This document shows positions 26,227 through 37,217 of a DNA stretch of 57,979 nt, piece after piece. The translations under genes and the position numbers were made by a program. How positions within the stretch are numbered: the stretch's first letter is position 1; every line of letters starts with the position of its first letter. The stretch is from assembly GCA_905478555.1 (NCBI GenBank), contig CAJQIZ010000028.1:1-57979 (forward strand). Direction: 5' to 3'. Source of the stretch: an uncultured Flavobacteriales bacterium (GTDB lineage Bacteria; Bacteroidota; Bacteroidia; Flavobacteriales; BACL11). Under the pieces are notes generated by a model that saw only the letters and a program-made list of their open reading frames with translations, did no database searches and had not been told where the DNA came from.

Positions 26227-26945
26227 TTTTTTGCTATTATTATTAGTCTATCTGACTTTTGAGCATTATAAAGGTCCAAATTGTAATTTCCGAATTGATT
26301 TATAACTCTCATTCCTGCAAAGTTAAGAAGTTTTGTAAAATCAGCTAATGTAATTGCTTTCACTTTTTCATTAAAATTATAATCTTTGTCTTTATCTGAA
26401 AAATTTATATTTTTGCAGATAAATCCATTTTCTACTTTCCTCCTGATGTAAAATCGAATACCATTTAATACTTTTGTTTCTTTTTGCACTAAATTAGGTA
26501 TTACCTTATCAGAATTTAAGAAATCAATTATTAAAACCCCTTCTTCTTTCAGGTTTTCCGACATTGCTTTTATGGCTGCAATATCATCTTCTTCTTTCTC
26601 AAAATAACCGAACGAAGTAAACAGGTTTAAAGCAACATTAAAAGTGTTTTTTTGGTAGCATTCTCTCATATCTGCTACATCAAATTGCAAGTTTTCTGTT
26701 TCGAATTGTTGGGCGTGTTTTATACTGTTTTCAGATAAATCTACTCCTGTAACATTAAATCCTAACTTAGAAAGAAACAAGGAATGCCTTCCTTTACCAC
26801 AAGCAATATCTATTATTTTAAAATTCTTTTTAAAAAACTCTAATTTACTTAGTACCGATAAAAAATTATCGGCTTCTTTTTCATCTCTGTTTTGGTACAG
26901 AATATGATAATATTTACTATCAAACCAATCTTTAAACCAATCCAT
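26217..26945 (-). CDS. Class I SAM-dependent methyltransferase
   Basis: A 242-residue soluble protein. Motif I is IIDIACGKGRHSLFLSKLG (about residues 43-61), followed by VTGVDLSENSIKHA and QFDVADMRE, a standard SAM-binding Rossmann fold. The later LFTSFGYFEKEEDDI and ILIDFLN segments match a common methyltransferase subgroup with unknown acceptor. Its start shares one base with the stop of the large secreted protein upstream. Confidence 0.85.
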   Translation of the reverse strand: MDWFKDWFDSKYYHILYQNRDEKEADNFLSVLSKLEFFKKNFKIIDIACGKGRHSLFLSKLGFNVTGVDLSENSIKHAQQFETENLQFDVADMRECYQKNTFNVALNLFTSFGYFEKEEDDIAAIKAMSENLKEEGVLIIDFLNSDKVIPNLVQKETKVLNGIRFYIRRKVENGFICKNINFSDKDKDYNFNEKVKAITLADFTKLLNFAGMRVINQFGNYNLDLYNAQKSDRLIIIAKKWK

Positions 26946-29900
26946 TATTCAATAAATATTTTTTCTTCTACACTACCATCATCGTATATATAGAACAATA
27001 AATTGTTCTTACTTTTTTCTACCTCCCTTCCTAATACATCTACAATTCGTATTAGTTTTTTATTTTCTGAATTTACAGAAGGAACAGATGTTATATTACT
27101 TCCGTTTATTTTCACATTATCCATAAAAAATCGGTTTCCATAATCATTTATTGCGGCAAAACGAATCATAATGATTTCTCCATTTAATCCGAAATTAGTT
27201 AAATTTAAAGTGTCTTTTTTCCAACTTCCACAAGTTGGATACCAAGGACTACCCACATAAGATGTAGTTTGTAAGCTTGATCCTGCCGCTCCGTATAACG
27301 AATCCCATGTTGCACCACAGTCCGTAGAAACATCTATTCTAAATCCGTCCTCATATCCTGCGGCATATCCTGAGTAAGCGTAGTCGTAAGTTAGCAGGTT
27401 TTCTGCAGGAGATGATCCAGATCCTAATCTAATTTTATTAGTAATAAGGTAGGCTTCATCTCCTTTTTGATTGATCCAATAATGGTTTACATAACTTACC
27501 GTATTAGGCAAACAATTTATCCCAGTATCTACTATAATAGATTGCCAACCAAAAGTAGAAGGAGGAGTCTGCCAAGAAGTAGGAGGGAAAACAGCTGTTT
27601 CAAATCCTTCCGAATAATTTTGAGTATTTGTAATGATAGAAACAGTGTCTGTGTATTTAATTAAATTGGGTATGTTTTGTATGCTTCCTCCATATGCATC
27701 CTGAATTTTCAGAGTTACATCATAGCTTCCTGGAGTTGAATAAACTACCACAGGATTTTCTAATGTAGAGGTAGAAGGGGTTCCTCCCGGGAAAAACCAT
27801 TCCCAACTTGCAGAACTTAACCTAATTGACGAGTGGTCTACAAAGTGTACTGTATCGTTCATGCAATTTATTTCTAACCTATTTGCCGCTATTTGTGCAG
27901 AGGGTTTTGTATTCTCATAAAGATCAACTTTATAAGCGGATCTATTGGTTCCGTTAAATAATTTTCCTTCTCTGTAGTACGGAATTAGTTGAGTAGAAAA
28001 AGTTCTTTTAGGTAAGTTATTGTCATAAATTTCCCAATCAGACATGTTGTTATTTCTATAATACACATTGCTTCTTGTTCCTAAATAAACCCCTCCATTA
28101 CTTCCTCTTTGGTGTTCAATGTTAGTAGCGTTTATATTGTCCAAAGTAGGAGTGCTCCAATTTATCCAGTTTTGCCCACCATCTACAGATTTAAATACTT
28201 CATACCCTTGTGCGTCTTGCACTCCACCGTACATCGATGTTCTGGCAATCCACAGAGTGTTTTCATCATTACTGCTAATTGTTATGTCATAAGGAATCCA
28301 AGCTTGCCCATTTATATTTGTTGGAGTTATTTCCGTCCAATTGAGTCCTGCGTTGTCTGTTTTCCAAATCTTTTTCGCTCCCCACCAACTTTCCCATGTA
28401 GCTACATAAATTACATCCGGATTGCTCCACGATACTTCTACAGAAGTGACTTTGTCATCAAAATGATGAATGAATTCAAAGCTACTTCCATTATTTTTAG
28501 AAAGCCAAAGAGTAGAATCGTTACCAATATAATACCAATTAAAACATCTAGGGTCAAATTCCATTTGTGAGGATTCTCCAATAATATAACTTGCATTTGG
28601 CTTTTTGTTTACAGAGAATGTAGCAATTGGAATAGTTCTATCTCCTGAAAGTAACTTTCCTCCATAATCAGAATAAGCCATTCTAGGATTCCCAAAATTA
28701 ACAAATCCTCTAATTCCATCTCCACCATCTGTGCAAAGCCAATTATTTATATAAGTACTTCCGTCTTTTAGTAATGTTCCATTATGATAAGTTCCTCCCA
28801 ACATAACATTTCCGTCTTTAAACCCTGATCCAAATCCCCAAAAATCTGCTCCTGCAATTCCGAACATTCGTTTTGTAATACTATCTGCTGCATTGTCAGA
28901 ATAGAAAACACCACCATCACAAGCAAACCAAAGGTCGTTTCCAAAATAATTAATATCGTGTATATCGGCATGTACATATTCCTTTTTATGAGGATGACTC
29001 CATTTTGCAGGACAAGTAAATGTTACTCCATTATCTGTGGAAATCCAATGTTGTACTCCTCCTACATGAATAATATTGGCATTGTTTGGGTTTACTGCAA
29101 GTCCCAAATCGTAATAATATTGTCCTCCATCATCCGTCCCATCATCTGCCCATCCCATCATATTTATATTAGTGGTGGAGGCAGGTCCTCCTTCTTGAGG
29201 TCCGCAACACTGAAAAGTCCAATTTTCTCCTTTGTCCATACTAATATAAATTCCATATAAGCCGCTTCCTCCATTTGCATTTCCCGTAGCTAAAGCAACA
29301 ATTTTATTTGGGTCTGCAGGACTTACCGCTATTTCTGTTCTTTTTTGCTCGTCTCCACCTACTGGATTTGGCCATCCATTTGTGTATTGTATTAAAGTAA
29401 ATCCTCCATCATCTGAACGGTAAAATTCAGTTTTATCTCCTGACTGACTTATAAAATACATAGTGTCTACCGAGTTGGGATGAAATTCAATTTCCAAAAA
29501 ATTACCACTCATTATTGTTGTAAAAGTATTCCCTCCATCTACTGATCTGAAAAGACCTTCGTCTGAAGCTGCAAATAAAAGCTGATTGTTTGTTGGTTGT
29601 AGTTTTATGTCTCTTATAGAATGAGATAAGTTAGTGAAAGTAACATCTCCAATTATATTCCAATTATTACCACCATCTACCGATTTGTAAATCCCTCCAT
29701 TCCCACTAATGTAAATTGTGTTAAAATCTATAAAGTCAATTTCAATTGCATACACTCCATTTAATTCTAAATTTTTAGTAATTAAACTCCAATTCATTCC
29801 CTTATCAGTTGTTTTCCAAGCTCCTGCAGTTGCGGTTCCCGCATATAATACATTACTGTTACTTACAGATTGCTCCACAGTATAAACATGAGCTGCTCCT

Positions 29901-30244
29901 GGGGCATAACTTCTACTTTCTGCATGTTGGTCAAAATCCCAAGGACCAATACATTCCCATTGGTTACTACTTTTAGAAATAGACGTTGATGTTACAGAGT
30001 TGGTGTGTCTACTAATGTTTCTTACCCATCTTTTGTAATATTGAGTATGATTGTTTTTCACTAGCTTATTAGTTTTATAATAGGCCCTGTACAATTTTAT
30101 TACTTCTCCTTCATCCGGATTTTCAGAGTACATCAGTTTTGCCCAATTTGGTATATTTTCATTTTCAGAGTTGTATTTCATTTCCGATTGAGAAAATACT
30201 ATTGTGGAGAAAGAGACTAGAATAAATGTAAAAATATGTTTCAT
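26945..30244 (-). CDS. Large secreted beta-propeller (BNR/VPS10-like) and PKD protein
   Basis: A 1099-residue protein exported by a signal peptide (ending VFSQ). Residues ~120-760 contain many repeats of the type GIYKSVDGGNNWNIIG and ENTLWIARTS, the Asp-box/BNR blades of sortilin- or sialidase-like propellers. A PKD domain follows (about 810-880, WEWFFPGGTPSTSTLENPV), then a jelly-roll-like region. The last ~40 residues (IRIVDVLGREVEKS, LLFYIYDDGSVEEKIFIE) match a short Bacteroidota variant of the T9SS C-terminal sorting signal. No glycosidase catalytic site is recognised. It is the first gene of the chain with the methyltransferase, ZIP and ATPase genes. Confidence 0.8.
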   Translation of the reverse strand: MKHIFTFILVSFSTIVFSQSEMKYNSENENIPNWAKLMYSENPDEGEVIKLYRAYYKTNKLVKNNHTQYYKRWVRNISRHTNSVTSTSISKSSNQWECIGPWDFDQHAESRSYAPGAAHVYTVEQSVSNSNVLYAGTATAGAWKTTDKGMNWSLITKNLELNGVYAIEIDFIDFNTIYISGNGGIYKSVDGGNNWNIIGDVTFTNLSHSIRDIKLQPTNNQLLFAASDEGLFRSVDGGNTFTTIMSGNFLEIEFHPNSVDTMYFISQSGDKTEFYRSDDGGFTLIQYTNGWPNPVGGDEQKRTEIAVSPADPNKIVALATGNANGGSGLYGIYISMDKGENWTFQCCGPQEGGPASTTNINMMGWADDGTDDGGQYYYDLGLAVNPNNANIIHVGGVQHWISTDNGVTFTCPAKWSHPHKKEYVHADIHDINYFGNDLWFACDGGVFYSDNAADSITKRMFGIAGADFWGFGSGFKDGNVMLGGTYHNGTLLKDGSTYINNWLCTDGGDGIRGFVNFGNPRMAYSDYGGKLLSGDRTIPIATFSVNKKPNASYIIGESSQMEFDPRCFNWYYIGNDSTLWLSKNNGSSFEFIHHFDDKVTSVEVSWSNPDVIYVATWESWWGAKKIWKTDNAGLNWTEITPTNINGQAWIPYDITISSNDENTLWIARTSMYGGVQDAQGYEVFKSVDGGQNWINWSTPTLDNINATNIEHQRGSNGGVYLGTRSNVYYRNNNMSDWEIYDNNLPKRTFSTQLIPYYREGKLFNGTNRSAYKVDLYENTKPSAQIAANRLEINCMNDTVHFVDHSSIRLSSASWEWFFPGGTPSTSTLENPVVVYSTPGSYDVTLKIQDAYGGSIQNIPNLIKYTDTVSIITNTQNYSEGFETAVFPPTSWQTPPSTFGWQSIIVDTGINCLPNTVSYVNHYWINQKGDEAYLITNKIRLGSGSSPAENLLTYDYAYSGYAAGYEDGFRIDVSTDCGATWDSLYGAAGSSLQTTSYVGSPWYPTCGSWKKDTLNLTNFGLNGEIIMIRFAAINDYGNRFFMDNVKINGSNITSVPSVNSENKKLIRIVDVLGREVEKSKNNLLFYIYDDGSVEEKIFIE

Positions 30245-30327: not shown

Positions 30328-31587
30328 TTATAAACTGAAAGCAGCTTTTGTCTCTTCTAAGCAATCTAATTTTTCCCAAGTAAAAGTTTCTACTTCAAAT
30401 TCTTTTTCCGTCCCTCCAATATTGAATCTTACTTTTTTTATTTCTGATTTTCTTCCCATATGTCCGTATGCAGCAGTTTCTGAATAGATAGGGTTTTTTA
30501 GTTTCAACCTACTAATAATAGAAGCAGGTTTTAAATTGAAACAAGGCATTTTTTTTACTGTTTCAGCAATTTCACCATCTGTAATGTTTACTTTTGATGT
30601 TCCGTAAGTATTTACAAAAATACCCATTGGCTCTGCTACTCCTATTGCATAACTTACTTGTACTAAAATTCTGTCTGCTACTGCAGCTGCTACTAAGTTT
30701 TTAGCTATGTGTCTTGTAGCATATGCTGCAGATCTATCTACTTTACTTGGATCTTTTCCTGAAAAAGCTCCACCACCATGGGCTCCTTTTCCTCCGTAAG
30801 TATCTACAATAATTTTTCTACCAGTAAGTCCAGTGTCTCCATGTGGTCCTCCAATTTCAAATTTTCCTGTCGGATTTACATGGTATTTTTCTCCACCAAA
30901 TAAAGCTGAGTTTTCTGCAGAAAGTTGTTCTTTAATTCTTGGTATTAAAATACTTCTTACATCTTTCTCAATTTGAGCTTGCATAGGCTTTTCATCTGCA
31001 AAATCATCATGCTGAGTAGAAACTACAATATCTGTAATTCTTTTTGGTGTATGATCGTCATTATACTCTAAAGTAACTTGAGATTTTGAATCCGGTCGTA
31101 AGTAAGTCATTTCTACTCCTTTCTTCCTGATATCGGCAAGTTCAATAAGTATTTTATGAGAGATGTCTAAAGCCAATGGCATTAGGTTTTCCGTTTCATT
31201 TGTAGCATAACCGAACATCATTCCTTGGTCTCCTGCTCCTTGCTCTTGATGTAATCCCTCTCCTTCCACAACTCCTTGTCGGATGTCTGCAGATTGTTCG
31301 TGTATTGCAGAAATAACTCCACAACTATCTGCATCAAATTGGTATTCCGATTTTGTATATCCAATTTTTCGGATTACTTCTCTTGCTACTTTTTGCACAT
31401 CAATATATCCTTCTGTTTTCACCTCTCCGCTAAGGACTGTAAGCCCTGTAGTTACTAGGGTTTCGCAGGCTACTTTCGAGTTGGGGTCTTGTGCTAAGAA
31501 GTTATCTAATAGTGCATCAGAAATCTGATCTGCTACTTTGTCTGGATGTCCTTCCGAAACTGATTCGGATGTAAAATAATATGACAT
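30328..31587 (-). CDS. metK: S-adenosylmethionine synthetase
   Basis: A 419-residue cytoplasmic enzyme that makes SAM from methionine and ATP. Diagnostic segments are [15 protein letters not shown] near the N-terminus (catalytic His and metal site), [12 protein letters not shown] (substrate loop) and [20 protein letters not shown] (P-loop-like). The length is typical for Bacteroidota. It faces away from metH-metF across a 353-base gap with a SAM-II-type aptamer in its own leader, and ends in a strong terminator, so it is monocistronic. Confidence 0.97.
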
Positions 31588-31619
31588 TTCTTAAATAATT
31601 TTAAGTTAATAATTAATAT

Positions 31620-31720
31620 AAAAAAGGTGTCGGACTTGGCTGAAGTGTTATAACTAAAAGTGAATTCGCTATTTTAGCATTTTTTTTAGTGGTTGCAATA
31701 GGCCAAATCCTTCCACTTTT
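31620..31720 (-). promoter_or_regulatory. Candidate SAM-II expression platform (aptamer/anti-aptamer pairing)
   Basis: GGATTTGGC inside the aptamer (31710-31702) is complementary over nine bases, with one T-G pair, to GCCAAGTCC downstream (31640-31632). Outside this the 5' arm AAAAGTG can pair with CACC followed by TTTTTT (31628-31620), interrupted by a small internal loop and a bulged C. The alternative helix uses the P1 5' strand, so it excludes the aptamer, and it ends in six U. A separate CACTTTT at 31662-31656 is also complementary to the same AAAAGTG. Confidence 0.45.
31668..31717 (-). promoter_or_regulatory. SAM-II riboswitch aptamer in the metK leader
   Basis: Minus-strand order: P1 5' arm AGTGG, loop with GATTTG, then CCTATTGCAA, P1 3' arm CCACT, an A-rich linker and GCTAAAA followed by TAG. 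This is the conserved layout of the SAM-II (SAM-alpha) H-type pseudoknot; CTA after the first loop can pair with the final TAG. The metK -7 box lies just upstream, so the aptamer is almost at the 5' end of the transcript. SAM-II usually controls methionine-synthesis genes; use on metK is less familiar. Confidence 0.82.
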
Positions 31721-31726
31721 GGACTA

Positions 31727-31734
31727 CAAATATA
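31727..31734 (-). promoter_or_regulatory. -7 box of metK
   Basis: TATATTTG on the minus strand is a full TAnnTTTG match. It places transcription start a few bases before the SAM-II aptamer. No TTG was found at the usual distance. Confidence 0.5.
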
Positions 31735-31790
31735 AAATAAAAAAATAAATATGTTAGGTTTTTAACTTTTTTTGTTATTTATTTGTATCG

Positions 31791-31887
31791 ACTTATCAAG
31801 AAAGACGGAGGGACGGGCCCTATGATGTCTTGGCAACCCTGAAAATGCATGGTGCCAAATCCCACTCCAATATGGAGACAGATGAAG
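31791..31887 (+). promoter_or_regulatory. SAM-I (S-box) riboswitch in the metH leader
   Basis: The S-box core is clear: CTTATCAAGAAAG, GGAGGGACGGGCCC, TATGATGTCTTGGCAACC, GGTGCCAAATCCC, a variable P4 stem (ACTCCAATATGGAG) and the closing AGATGAAG. It lies 53 bases before metH and would lower metH-metF expression when SAM is abundant. I see no strong hairpin plus U run after it, so control may be at translation. Confidence 0.93.
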
Positions 31888-31940
31888 AAATCAATACCTA
31901 TTTTCTGAAATCTTTTTTGTGAAGTCTTGAAATTTAATGA

Positions 31941-34900
31941 ATGAACAAGACAATAAAAGAAATATTAAAAGAAAGAATTCTAATTCTTGATGGCGCTATG
32001 GGTACCATGATTCAAAGGTATAAACTAGAAGAAAAAGATTTTAAAGGAACTCAATTTATAAATTCTGAAAATGATTTAAAGGGAAATAATGATTTACTTT
32101 CTATCACTAGGCCAGATATTATTAAGGCAATTCATGCAGAATATTTTACTGCTGGTGCCGATATTATAGAAACCAATACTTTTAGTGGTACAACGATAGC
32201 ACAAGCAGATTATAAATTAGAATCTGCTGTTTACGATATTAATTTTCAATCTGCAAAAATTGCAAAGGAAGTTGCTGTTGAGTTTTCTACTCCTGAAAAA
32301 CCAAGATTTGTTGCAGGTGCTATTGGTCCAACAAACAGAACGGCTTCTATTTCTCCTAAAGTAGAAAACCCTGCTTTCAGACACATTACATTCGATCAGT
32401 TAAAAGTGGCTTATACCGAACAAGTAACCGCATTAATTGATGGAGGAGTAGATTTGCTTTTAGTAGAAACAGTATTTGATACCTTAAATTGTAAGGCAGC
32501 ACTTTTTGCTATTATGGATGTGTTTGAAACTAAAAACATTGAGTTACCAATAATGGTATCGGGTACTATTACAGATGAAAGTGGTAGAACTCTTTCTGGA
32601 CAAACGGCAGAAGCGTTTTTAAATTCTGTTTCTCATATCCCTCTTTTAAGTATTGGTTTTAATTGTGCTTTAGGAACTACAGCTATGCGTCCTTATATAA
32701 AGGAACTTGCGGATAAATCTGATTTCTTTGTAAGTGCGTATCCTAATGCAGGACTCCCAAATGAGATGGGAGAATATGAAGAAACGGCCCAATTAATGGG
32801 AGAACAGTTAGAAGATTTTATGAGTTCGGGACTGGTGAATATTGTAGGTGGTTGTTGTGGAACTACTCCAGAGCATATTGCAGAGTTTGCTAAAATTGCT
32901 ACTAAATGTAGTCCCAGAATAGTCCCTACATTTAAAAAGGAAATGAAACTCTCTGGATTAGAATCAGTAACTATTATTCCAGAAAGTAATTTTGTAAATA
33001 TTGGGGAACGAACCAATGTAATGGGTTCTATAAAATTTAGAAGATTAATTAAAGAAGATGATTTTGAACAAGCACTTTCAGTTGCACTTCAGCAAGTGGA
33101 AAGCGGAGCTCAAGTTATAGATATCAACATGGATGATGGATTGATTGAAGGAGTAGAAACTATGGTTCATTTCCTGAATTTAATTGCTTCTGATCCAGAC
33201 ATTTCTCGTGTTCCAATTATGATTGATTCCTCAAAATGGGAAATAATTGAAGAAGGTTTAAAGTGTTTGCAAGGTAAAGGAATAGTGAACTCTATCTCTT
33301 TAAAAGAAGGAGAGGAGGTATTTATATCTCATGCGAAAACAATTTTAAAATATGGAGCTGCAGTAGTAGTTATGGCTTTTGATAAAAAAGGGCAAGCAGT
33401 AGATTATGAAGATAAAATAAGAATTTGCGAAAGAGCCTACCATATTTTGGTAGATAAAGTTGGTTTCCCTGCTGAAGATATTATTTTCGATCCGAACATA
33501 TTAACGGTAGCGACAGGAATTGAAGAACATAATAACTATGCTGTTGATTTTTTAATGGCTACTAAATGGATAAAAGAAAACCTGCCATTTGCAAAAGTAA
33601 GTGGAGGAGTGAGTAATGTTTCTTTTTCATTTAGAGGAAATAATGTAGTGAGAGAGGCCATGCATTCTTCTTTCCTTTATCATGCTATCCAAAATGGAAT
33701 GGACATGGGAATTGTTAATGCGGGTATGATTGAAGTTTATTCTAATATTCCGAAAGATTTACTTACTGCTGTAGAAGATGTTCTGTTAAATAAAGATAAT
33801 GGAGCTACCGAAAGATTAGTGGATATTGCAGAAATATATAAAGGTGGAGGAAAGTTAAGAGTGGAAAATTTGGATTGGAGAAATCAGTCGGTAGAAAAGA
33901 GATTGGCACATTCACTTGTAAAAGGAATTGTAACTTTTATAGATGAAGATACAGAGGAAGCAAGATTAAAAGCAGTGAAGCCGTTAGATGTAATCGAAGG
34001 GCCATTGATGGTTGGAATGAATATTGTTGGAGATCTTTTTGGAAGTGGAAAAATGTTTTTGCCACAAGTAGTGAAATCAGCAAGGGTAATGAAGAAATCG
34101 GTTGCTCTTCTTACTCCTTATATTGAAGATGAGAAAACAGAAAGATCTCATTCCGGAATAATATTAATGGCAACGGTAAAAGGAGATGTACATGATATTG
34201 GTAAGAATATAGTGGGGGTAGTTCTATCTTGTAATAATTACGAAATTATCGATTTGGGCGTAATGGTTTCTTCTGAAAAAATATTAGAAGCGGCTAAAAA
34301 ACATAAGGTTGATATTATTGGATTGAGTGGGTTAATTACCCCATCATTAGATGAGATGATAGATGTAGCGGAAGAAATGCAGCGACAAGATTTTAATATT
34401 CCACTAATTATTGGAGGAGCTACTACATCAAAAGTTCATACTGCCGTAAAATTGATAGATAAATATACTAATAATGCTATTATTCATGTGTTAGATGCTT
34501 CTAAATCGGTAAGTACATGCAGTAAATTATTAGGTTCTGATTCTGAGAATTTTAAATCTGAAATGAAAGAAAAGTATACTGAGATTAAAGAACATTATTT
34601 AAATAGAAGAAGTCAGAAACAGTACCTCTCATTAGAAAACTCAAGGAAAAATTATTTTGAATACAATTGGGAAGACTATACACCATCTGAACCTAATAAT
34701 TTAGGAGTAAATAGATTTGAAAACATAAATATTGAAGATGTAATTCCGTATATAGATTGGACTCCTTTCTTTATTTCATGGGAGATGAAAGGGAAATTCC
34801 CTGCTATTCTGTCGAATGAAAAGTATGGAGAAGAAGCAACAAGTTTGCACAATGATGCTATAGAGATGTTACAAAAAATTGTTTCAGAAAAATGGTTGAC

Positions 34901-35561
34901 TTTAAAATCGGTTGTGGGAGTTTGGGAAGCCAAACAAGATGGAGATGATGTTGTTCTTTCTAAGAATGGAATTAAATTAGAAACTTTTCACTTCCTCCGT
35001 CAGCAATCTAAAAAGACAAAAAATAACTTATGTTTGTCAGATTATATTTCTCCTATAAAGGATTATATGGGAGCATTTGTTTGCACTGCAGGACTTGATA
35101 TCGAAAATCAATTATCTGTTTTCGAAAAGGATTTGGACGACTATAATAATATTCTACTAAAATCTTTAGCCGACAGATTGGCAGAAGCACTTACAGAATA
35201 CATGCACGAAAAAGTAAGAAAAGAAATTTGGGGATATTCGTCATCAGAAAACTATAGAAATGATGAATTGATAAAAGAAGAATACAATGGAATTCGTCCT
35301 GCTCCTGGATATACCGCTTGTCCGGATCATACTGAAAAGTTAAAGATTTTTAAACTCTTAAATGCAGAAGAAATAGGAGTAAGTTTAACTGAAAGTATGG
35401 CAATGTATCCTAATGCAACTGTAAGTGGTTATTATTTTTCTCATCCAAATTCAAAATATTTTAGTGTAGGGAAAATTCAGGACGACCAAATTTTAGATTA
35501 TTCAAAACGAAAAAATAAAAGTACTAAAGAAATAGAAAAATGGCTACGGTCAAATATTTAA
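31941..35561 (+). CDS. metH: Cobalamin-dependent methionine synthase
   Basis: A 1206-residue, full four-module enzyme that methylates homocysteine with methyltetrahydrofolate via B12. The homocysteine domain (about 1-330) has zinc ligands Cys242 (GFNCALG) and Cys305/Cys306 ([11 protein letters not shown]). The pterin domain (about 345-620) has [12 protein letters not shown]. The B12 domain (about 640-880) has GDVHDIGKN with the cobalt-ligating His751. The C-terminal activation domain (about 890-1206) has [12 protein letters not shown]. It starts 53 bases after the SAM-I aptamer, with metF four bases downstream, and needs cobalamin although no cobalamin genes are in the window. Confidence 0.96.
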
Positions 35562-35565
35562 AAAC

Positions 35566-36519
35566 ATGAAAGTAACTCAACATATAAAAAACGCAAGAAA
35601 AACTCTCTTTTCCTTTGAGATTTTACCTCCTTTAAAAGGAACAAGTATTCAATCTATTTACAATTCTTTAGATCCATTAATGGAGTTCAATCCCCCTTTT
35701 ATTGATGTGACTTATCATAGAGAGGAACATGTATATAAGAAACGAAAAGATGGTTTGTTAGAGAGAAGGTCGGTGAGGAAAAGGCCAGGGACAGTTGGTA
35801 TTTGTGCTGCTATTATGAATAAATATCAGGTGGATACGGTACCTCATATTATCTGTGGTGGTTTTAATAAAGAAGAAACAGAAAACGCTCTTATCGATTT
35901 GGATTTTTTGGGAATAGATAATGTTTTGGTTTTGAGAGGAGATCCTATAAAATCGGAAACTTATTTTACTGCTGAAAAAGGAGGACATAAGTATGCCTCA
36001 GAATTATTAGGGCAAGTAAATGAGATGAATAACGGGATTTATTTAGATGAAGAATTGAAAAATTCTGCTCCTACAGATTTTTGTATCGGAGTAGCGGGAT
36101 ATCCTGAAAAGCACTTTGAAGCGGCTAATATGCGTTCGGATATTCATTTCCTAAAAAAGAAGGTAGAAGCAGGTGCAGACTATATAGTAACTCAGATGTT
36201 TTTTGATAATCAGAAATATTTTGATTTTGTAAAATTGTGTAGAGAACATGATATTAATATTCCTATTATTCCGGGATTAAAACCTATTTCTACACATAAG
36301 CAACTTACTTTATTACCACACAGATTTAATTTAAACATTCCAAATAATTTGGTAGATGAGGTGTTGAAGTGTAAGGATAATGATTCTGTAAGGCAAGTTG
36401 GGGTAGAGTGGGCCACACAACAAACTAAAGAGTTAATTGAATTTGGAGCTCCTTGTGTGCATTTCTATACAATGGGAAAATCAGATAATGTTCAGGAAAT
36501 TGTAGGAAGTTTTGTTTAA
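35566..36519 (+). CDS. metF: 5,10-methylenetetrahydrofolate reductase
   Basis: A 317-residue FAD enzyme that makes the methyltetrahydrofolate used by MetH. It has the N-terminal FSFEILPPLKG strand, FIDVTYHREEH, a catalytic-region VLRGDP, and the TQMFFDNQKYFDFV segment of MetF. It lies four bases after metH in the same SAM-I-controlled transcript. The 3' end overlaps the stop of the gldA-like gene on the other strand by four bases, with no terminator between. Confidence 0.94.
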   Translation: MKVTQHIKNARKTLFSFEILPPLKGTSIQSIYNSLDPLMEFNPPFIDVTYHREEHVYKKRKDGLLERRSVRKRPGTVGICAAIMNKYQVDTVPHIICGGFNKEETENALIDLDFLGIDNVLVLRGDPIKSETYFTAEKGGHKYASELLGQVNEMNNGIYLDEELKNSAPTDFCIGVAGYPEKHFEAANMRSDIHFLKKKVEAGADYIVTQMFFDNQKYFDFVKLCREHDINIPIIPGLKPISTHKQLTLLPHRFNLNIPNNLVDEVLKCKDNDSVRQVGVEWATQQTKELIEFGAPCVHFYTMGKSDNVQEIVGSFV

Positions 36520-37217
36520 CAGCAAAGGGATTGAAAATGACTTTCAATATCTAGTTTTTCTTTTTTATATTCTGAAATTAACTTATCAGAAACAATTTCG
36601 CCTTTGTTAATTATTACAACTCTATTACATATTTTTTCTACTTCTTGAAGGATATGAGTAGAGAGTAAAACAGTTTTATCTTTTCCAACTTCCTTTATTA
36701 ATTTCCTCACTTCTTCCAACTGGTTTGGATCTAGTCCTGTAGTAGGTTCATCTAAAATAAGTACTTCCGGATTGTGAAGTAAAGCAGCTACAAGTCCAAC
36801 TCTTTGTTGGTATCCTTTACTTAATTCTCCTATGGTTTTGTGTTGTTCGCTTTGTAATCCTACTTTTTGTATCATTTGTTCTATTCTCTGTTTTTTATCT
36901 TCTATTTTATAGATAGAAGCAACAAAATTCAGGTATTCTTTTATGTACATTTCCTTGTATAGAGGATTGTTTTCTGGGAGATAACCAATTCTTTTTTTAG
37001 ACTCATTTTCTAGCTCTGCAGTATTGAATTTGCAAACCTTTACAGTTCCACTATCTTGAGAAATATAGGAACTTATAATTTTCATTAATGTAGATTTTCC
37101 CGCTCCATTTGGGCCTAAAAAACCGACAATTTCTCCTTTTTCTATTTCTAAGGAAACATCAGAAAGTGCTATTTGATTTCCGTAAGATTTATTTATGTTT
37201 TGTATAAAGATGGACAT
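36516..37217 (-). CDS. GldA-like ABC transporter ATPase
   Basis: A 233-residue ATP-binding subunit. The Walker A loop GPNGAGKST is at residues 35-43. IGYLPENNPLY, the signature LSKGYQQRVGL and Walker B VLILDEPTTGLDP match GldA of gliding bacteria very closely. GldA proteins usually run to about 300 residues; this one stops right after the ATPase core and lacks the C-terminal extension. The GldF/GldG membrane partners are not in the window. It follows the SIMPL gene by two bases. An unrelated ABC exporter of the same class is possible. Confidence 0.78.
   Translation of the reverse strand: MSIFIQNINKSYGNQIALSDVSLEIEKGEIVGFLGPNGAGKSTLMKIISSYISQDSGTVKVCKFNTAELENESKKRIGYLPENNPLYKEMYIKEYLNFVASIYKIEDKKQRIEQMIQKVGLQSEQHKTIGELSKGYQQRVGLVAALLHNPEVLILDEPTTGLDPNQLEEVRKLIKEVGKDKTVLLSTHILQEVEKICNRVVIINKGEIVSDKLISEYKKEKLDIESHFQSLCC

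Follow-up and report, generated by a model that had tools for sequence, protein, structure and literature searches.

In the 57,979-nucleotide (nt) stretch of an uncultured Flavobacteriales genome analyzed here (contig CAJQIZ010000028.1, hereafter the window), two divergent genes, metK for S-adenosylmethionine (SAM) synthetase and metH for B12-dependent methionine synthase, are separated by a gap of 353 base pairs (bp; 31588-31940) that carries a SAM-II aptamer on the metK strand and a SAM-I (S-box) aptamer on the strand of metH and metF. An earlier note made from the letters alone had proposed this arrangement, and the Rfam models RF01726 and RF00162 both matched above their cut-offs. We consider it likely that the two are genuine, independent SAM riboswitches, each of which turns its gene off at the start of translation by way of a downstream anti-aptamer element. 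SAM-II would control metK and thereby SAM synthesis, and SAM-I would control metH-metF and thereby methionine synthesis. The data show both aptamers by model score, their conservation and divergent placement, the two complementary anti-aptamer elements, and independent loss. We infer that the RNAs bind SAM, that binding turns expression off, that control falls on translation and not on transcription, and that the start site is masked.

The whole 58-kb window was scanned with cmscan against 4227 Rfam families. Only three matches reached the gathering threshold, a tRNA, RF01726 and RF00162. The RF01726 match, the long-loop form of the SAM-II aptamer, lies in the metK leader at 31664-31722 on the minus strand and scored 62.2 bits (cut-off 44, E = 1.3e-9). 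The RF00162 match, the SAM-I aptamer, lies in the metH-metF leader at 31790-31888 on the plus strand and scored 73.3 bits (cut-off 44.4, E = 2.5e-15). Both matches are full-length, covering model positions 1-60 of 60 and 1-108 of 108, respectively, and a permissive threshold applied to the metK-metH gap gave no further credible Rfam match. RF00162 was one of the two models that the earlier note had named for this gap. The other, RF00521, was the wrong choice for the metK side, where it reached 14.6 bits (cut-off 36) and was dropped; RF01726 is the right model. The earlier note had named a sub-threshold RF00521 score as a refuting result, but this shortfall does not refute SAM-II and is not decisive for the class, as RF00521 models a different, alphaproteobacterial subgroup ('SAM_alpha'). 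RF01726, in turn, has records from Bacteroidetes and from marine samples (PMC2864571). In the genome assembly (1.79 Mb in 44 contigs), each class occurs once, and both copies are in the metK-metH gap.

Covariation supports the P1 stem of the SAM-II aptamer. In 64 sequences from many families, the P1 helix (AGTGG at 31713-31717 with CCACT at 31688-31692, minus strand) was paired in 98.8% of the alignment cells, and its middle pair was U-A in 46/64 sequences and A-U in 17/64. The whole structure beat all 500 column shuffles, both in cells paired and in covariation score. The 3-bp pseudoknot (CTA at 31699-31701 with TAG at 31669-31671, minus strand) showed two-sided changes at all three pairs but was paired in only 69.8% of the cells in a single alignment register, because in the window's own family the register is offset by one base. 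In most of that family the third pseudoknot pair is broken; in the window CTA pairs with TAG. The covariation that the earlier note had proposed to look for in relatives was clear for P1, and for the pseudoknot it appeared as two-sided changes with incomplete pairing in any one register. The invariant core bases are retained in both aptamers. Both are members of known riboswitch classes and are predicted to bind SAM.

An alignment of 32 family members showed that the stretch between the SAM-II aptamer and the metK start has diverged except for one motif, GCCAARTC, which is complementary to the aptamer core GAUUUGGC. In the window, this anti-aptamer element, B' (GCCAAGTCC, 31632-31640, minus strand), can form 9 bp, one of them G-U, with the conserved core B (GGATTTGGC, 31702-31710, minus strand), which is nearly invariant in the alignment. 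When the energy of the B:B' duplex was compared with that in shuffled leaders, p was 0.010 in the window and below 0.05 in 32/34 family leaders. The helix was paired in 94.1% of the cells across 32 sequences, and structures slid by 1-3 columns gave 26-41%. Two-sided changes from A-U to G-C were found in four sequences, and G-U pairs in several. Genome-wide, B:B' is the sole such pair within 200 nt. The metK leader also folds better than its shuffles (z -2.28), and its minimum-energy fold includes B:B'.

In other families the match to B:B' is patchy, and at times the element moves together with the aptamer, as in leaders L115 (GGATTTGA with TCAAATCC) and L020 (CTGATTGC with GCAATCAG). Apparent anti-aptamer segments were seen in L020, L084, L115, L117 and L118, some of them directed at another part of the SAM-II core, CUGAUUGC, rather than at GAUUUGGC. 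A further candidate pairing in the metK leader, A:A' (GCTAAA with a downstream TTTAGC), was convincing by eye and was rejected, as it was not significant in most leaders (family median p 0.17).

The metH leader has an element of the same kind, a conserved sequence UCUUUUUUGnnAAGUC complementary to the SAM-I aptamer core GACUUAUCAAGAAAGA. In the window it reads UCUUUUUUGUGAAGUC at 31911-31926 and pairs over 14 bp with GACUUAUCAAGAAAGA in the 5' strand of the aptamer. We refer to this anti-aptamer element as D' (TCTTTTTTGTGAAGTC, plus strand) and to its target as D (GACTTATCAAGAAAGA, 31790-31805, plus strand). The D:D' pairing had p<0.05 in 25/25 leaders (median p 0.003; p=0.004 in the window), and in all 25 D' lies a short distance upstream of the metH start codon. 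The helix was paired in 85.0% of the cells, as against 40-59% in slid controls, and its end pairs change two-sidedly, from G-C to A-U in three sequences and from A-U to G-C in one. The leader beats shuffled folds (z -2.35), and D:D' is present in its minimum-energy fold.

D' overlaps a second structure, a putative start-masking hairpin (31924-31951, plus strand) in which GTCTTG at 31924-31929 pairs with CAAGAC at 31946-31951 and encloses the ATG at 31941. Its 5' arm overlaps D', and its 3' arm lies in codons 2-4 of metH. In the folding model, the mean unpaired probability of the metH start region fell from 0.68 without P1 to 0.44 with P1 held closed (p=0.02 against shuffles), and the drop was significant at p<0.05 in 48% of the 25 leaders; the local fold of the hairpin itself had p=0.09. 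In the energy model the alternative states of the metH leader lie within 1 kcal/mol of each other, and binding of a ligand could tip such nearly equal states.

These elements suggest how the switches might work. Without SAM, B' in the metK leader or D' in the metH leader would dismantle the aptamer of the same leader by pairing with its core. In the presence of SAM the aptamer would keep its fold and B' or D' would be released, and the released element or its neighbor would fold onto the start-codon region, so that initiation would fall. In the metH leader, closure of P1 would free D', whose 3' end (GUCUUG) would pair with CAAGAC and enclose the start codon. Because translation initiation in Bacteroidetes operates without a Shine-Dalgarno sequence and is adjusted through the RNA structure near the start codon (PMC6847099), masking of the start region is, in silico, the output that we consider likeliest, with stronger support for metH than for metK.

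Several observations weigh against this scheme, most of them on the metK side. The element that could close the metK start, C (GACACCTTTTTT, 31620-31631, minus strand), pairs weakly with the start region (TTTAAGAA-ATG-TC, 31583-31595, minus strand, start codon 31585-31587), with p=0.071 in the window and p<0.05 in 22% of the relatives. Accessibility of the metK start barely shifts when P1 is closed (in the window from 0.45 to 0.41, with p=0.11). A crude energy model places the metK anti-aptamer state about 17 kcal/mol below P1 alone; the model contains no pseudoknot, triplex or SAM, so that its state energies serve as pointers only. With the anti-aptamer state so much the more stable, the metK switch would have to be decided kinetically, ahead of the transcription of B'. 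The aptamer cores are nearly constant in the family, with natural variation at the base before GATTTG in B and at the first bases of D, which limits covariation in both B:B' and D:D', and D:D' did not exceed its column-shuffle control because the aptamer strand is almost invariant. The family counts, moreover, are non-independent through relatedness.

The distribution of the two classes was surveyed in a sample of 100 relatives and in a sample of 392 genomes from the phylum. Of the relatives, 69 had SAM-II and 55 had SAM-I; the counts for the phylum sample were 69 and 312. In the window's own family, all 25 of the 25 genomes with both classes have the divergent pair, with the aptamers 64-121 bp apart (64-76 bp in nearly all members and 67 bp in the window). 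Other families contribute 23 genomes with both classes, and in 5 of these the aptamers are divergent and no more than 400 bp apart. When 84,980 species genomes were scanned with an exact pattern for the divergent arrangement, 26 stretches were returned, all of them under the label of uncultured Flavobacteriales or Cryomorphaceae. The divergent pair is thus inherited in this uncultured Flavobacteriales family. SAM-II lies upstream of metK in every leader with a placeable start, and SAM-I lies upstream of metH in the window's family and, as read by eye, upstream of metX or metB-like genes in others. Outside the window's family the two classes serve the same pathway functions at distant loci. As a rule, SAM-II goes with SAM synthesis and SAM-I with methionine synthesis, and the adjacency of the aptamers, a family-level feature, arises because metK and metH are divergent neighbors. 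In one relative (G005), the same metK-metH gap occurs on two contigs (L069 and L070), as strain variants or a duplication.

Promoter motifs place a predicted transcription start at the first base of each aptamer. The -7 box consensus of Bacteroidota and flavobacteria is TAnnTTTG (PMC9723704). This motif was found upstream of the SAM-II P1 in 65/73 leaders, with 3.5 expected, and in all 34 family members it lies 9-13 nt from SAM-II. In the window, the metK box (TATATTTG, 31727-31734, minus strand) predicts a start at 31722, where the RF01726 match begins. On the metH side a near-match (TTTATTTG, 31778-31785, plus strand) predicts a start at 31790, where the SAM-I match begins; almost every relative has a TTTG 6-8 nt ahead of CTTATC, and a relaxed -7 box was found in 24/25 leaders, with 8 expected. 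The gap therefore fits two back-to-back promoters of the TAnnTTTG type. If each start has a -33 box some 33 bp ahead of it, the promoters would abut halfway along the 67 bp between the aptamers, and the close spacing may be conserved because two such promoters need the room.

We weighed control of translation against control of transcription, in which both riboswitches would act through intrinsic or Rho-dependent termination. SAM-II elsewhere is found mostly upstream of terminators (PMC2258182; PMC9481103), and each leader here has a U-run (31620-31625, minus strand; 31913-31918, plus strand). However, a search of both leaders found no intrinsic terminator-like hairpin, the U-run of metH belongs to the conserved anti-aptamer helix, and that of metK is missing from most relatives, and we regard termination as an unlikely output. 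Another reading is that either aptamer, or both, may be an ON switch or a functionless, decayed relic, and the loss of the third SAM-II pseudoknot pair in many relatives could be taken as a sign of such decay. Yet both aptamers score far above the cut-off and keep their invariant core bases, and they are conserved, whereas true relics in relatives visibly decay. An ON switch would also be at odds with the metH start region, which is less accessible in the bound fold. We hold this reading to be very improbable.

The other alternative concerns the pair as a whole. The earlier note had SAM synthesis and precursor synthesis read by two sensors of one ligand from a single regulatory region, a wording that suggests a joint device. 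A composite device, in which the two are kept adjacent and act jointly on a shared promoter region, would account for the narrow 64-76 bp spacing in nearly all family members and for the position of both promoter boxes within one short stretch. The shared locus is confirmed; the joint device was rejected on independent loss. In G045, G051, G007, G021 and other relatives the metH-metF cassette is absent beside metK, and the SAM-II-metK unit is intact; an ABC-ATPase gene resembling the window gene at 36516-37217, which follows metF, stands directly upstream of it. Where metH-metF has been deleted, SAM-I decays: it is truncated and fused with metF at the latter's 3' end in G022 (L064), reduced to 36.6 bits beside a metF remnant with a stop in G042 (L071), and no longer detected beside a metH remnant in G026 (L080). 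All three relatives retain SAM-II, with the metK anti-aptamer intact at p=0.005. Conversely, no SAM-II was detected at metK in G009, G024, G013 and G031 (L150-L153, in that order), and an intact SAM-I lies about 100-120 bp away. Since each switch is lost without the other, these deletion scars, as natural experiments, suggest that each follows its own gene. The relatives are draft assemblies in which a single deletion joint could be an artefact, but misassembly would not be expected to produce point decay at the invariant bases of SAM-I. In other families, moreover, both classes occur at distant loci, and we give the composite device hardly any credence. The evidence is instead for SAM-II-metK and SAM-I-metH-metF as two neighboring but separate transcription units with no common device, because the transcripts are divergent and non-overlapping, each has its own promoter box and leader, and each can be lost independently.

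The SAM-I-metH-metF block, which together with the ABC-ATPase gene spans 31790-37217, is flanked by metK and that gene; several relatives lack the whole block at this place. The B12-dependent step may have been lost repeatedly; SAM-I was not found in those relatives.

The preferred reading, two separate translational OFF switches, was compared with known systems. Like the described SAM-II long-loop RNAs (RF01726, PMC2864571), whose records include Bacteroidetes and marine samples, the metK leader has a full-length match above the cut-off, with P1 and a putative pseudoknot, upstream of a SAM-pathway gene; it differs in the downstream anti-aptamer GCCAARTC, for which we found no description, and in that no terminator was found. 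The metH leader shares with the S box (RF00162) a full-length match and a position upstream of methionine synthesis genes. The expression platform of the classical S box of Bacillus subtilis is a terminator/antiterminator, whereas in the window the target of the anti-aptamer is the aptamer's 5' strand, in P1 and further on, and the element lies just before the start codon, in a phylum that lacks Shine-Dalgarno sequences. Two SAM riboswitch classes also meet at one locus in tandem SAM-II/SAM-V and a few SAM-II/SAM-I-IV riboswitches (PMC9481103). Those share one transcript and one gene, whereas the pair described here is on opposite strands, with separate predicted promoters and different genes.

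A survey of 2007 by Barrick and Breaker reported both classes within Bacteroidetes and no species with both (PMC2258182); in contrast, 52/54 of the same-order genomes with SAM-II in the phylum sample also carry SAM-I. The earlier impression that the divergent pairing is unusual agrees with the papers found, none of which describes it; co-occurrence of the classes as such is not rare in this order. For the divergent SAM-I/SAM-II pair and for both anti-aptamer elements we found no description in the open-access literature searched, a result that does not prove absence. Taken singly the aptamers are ordinary, but their family-wide arrangement is undescribed, and both leaders share one design of expression platform. 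Tentatively, and with the chances slightly against it, two unrelated SAM aptamer classes may have converged on the same platform, a conserved anti-aptamer upstream of the start codon that takes the aptamer apart or, alternatively, releases a mask for the start codon. If so, this platform may be a general route to riboswitch control of translation in Bacteroidota. Both classes stand 67 bp apart in one genome, with a division of labor that is stable across an order, and the anti-aptamer elements make riboswitch control of translation without Shine-Dalgarno sequences testable.

The genes concerned are metK (30328..31587, minus strand; PF02773, PF00438, PF02772), metH (31941..35561, plus strand; PF02965, PF02574, PF00809, PF02310) and metF, which encodes methylenetetrahydrofolate reductase (35566..36519, plus strand; PF02219). 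metF begins 4 nt past the end of metH, and the two presumably form one operon. On the other side, metK is adjoined by an open frame on the minus strand (26945-30244, 1099 amino acids) with an apparent signal sequence and repeats, whose product looks secreted.
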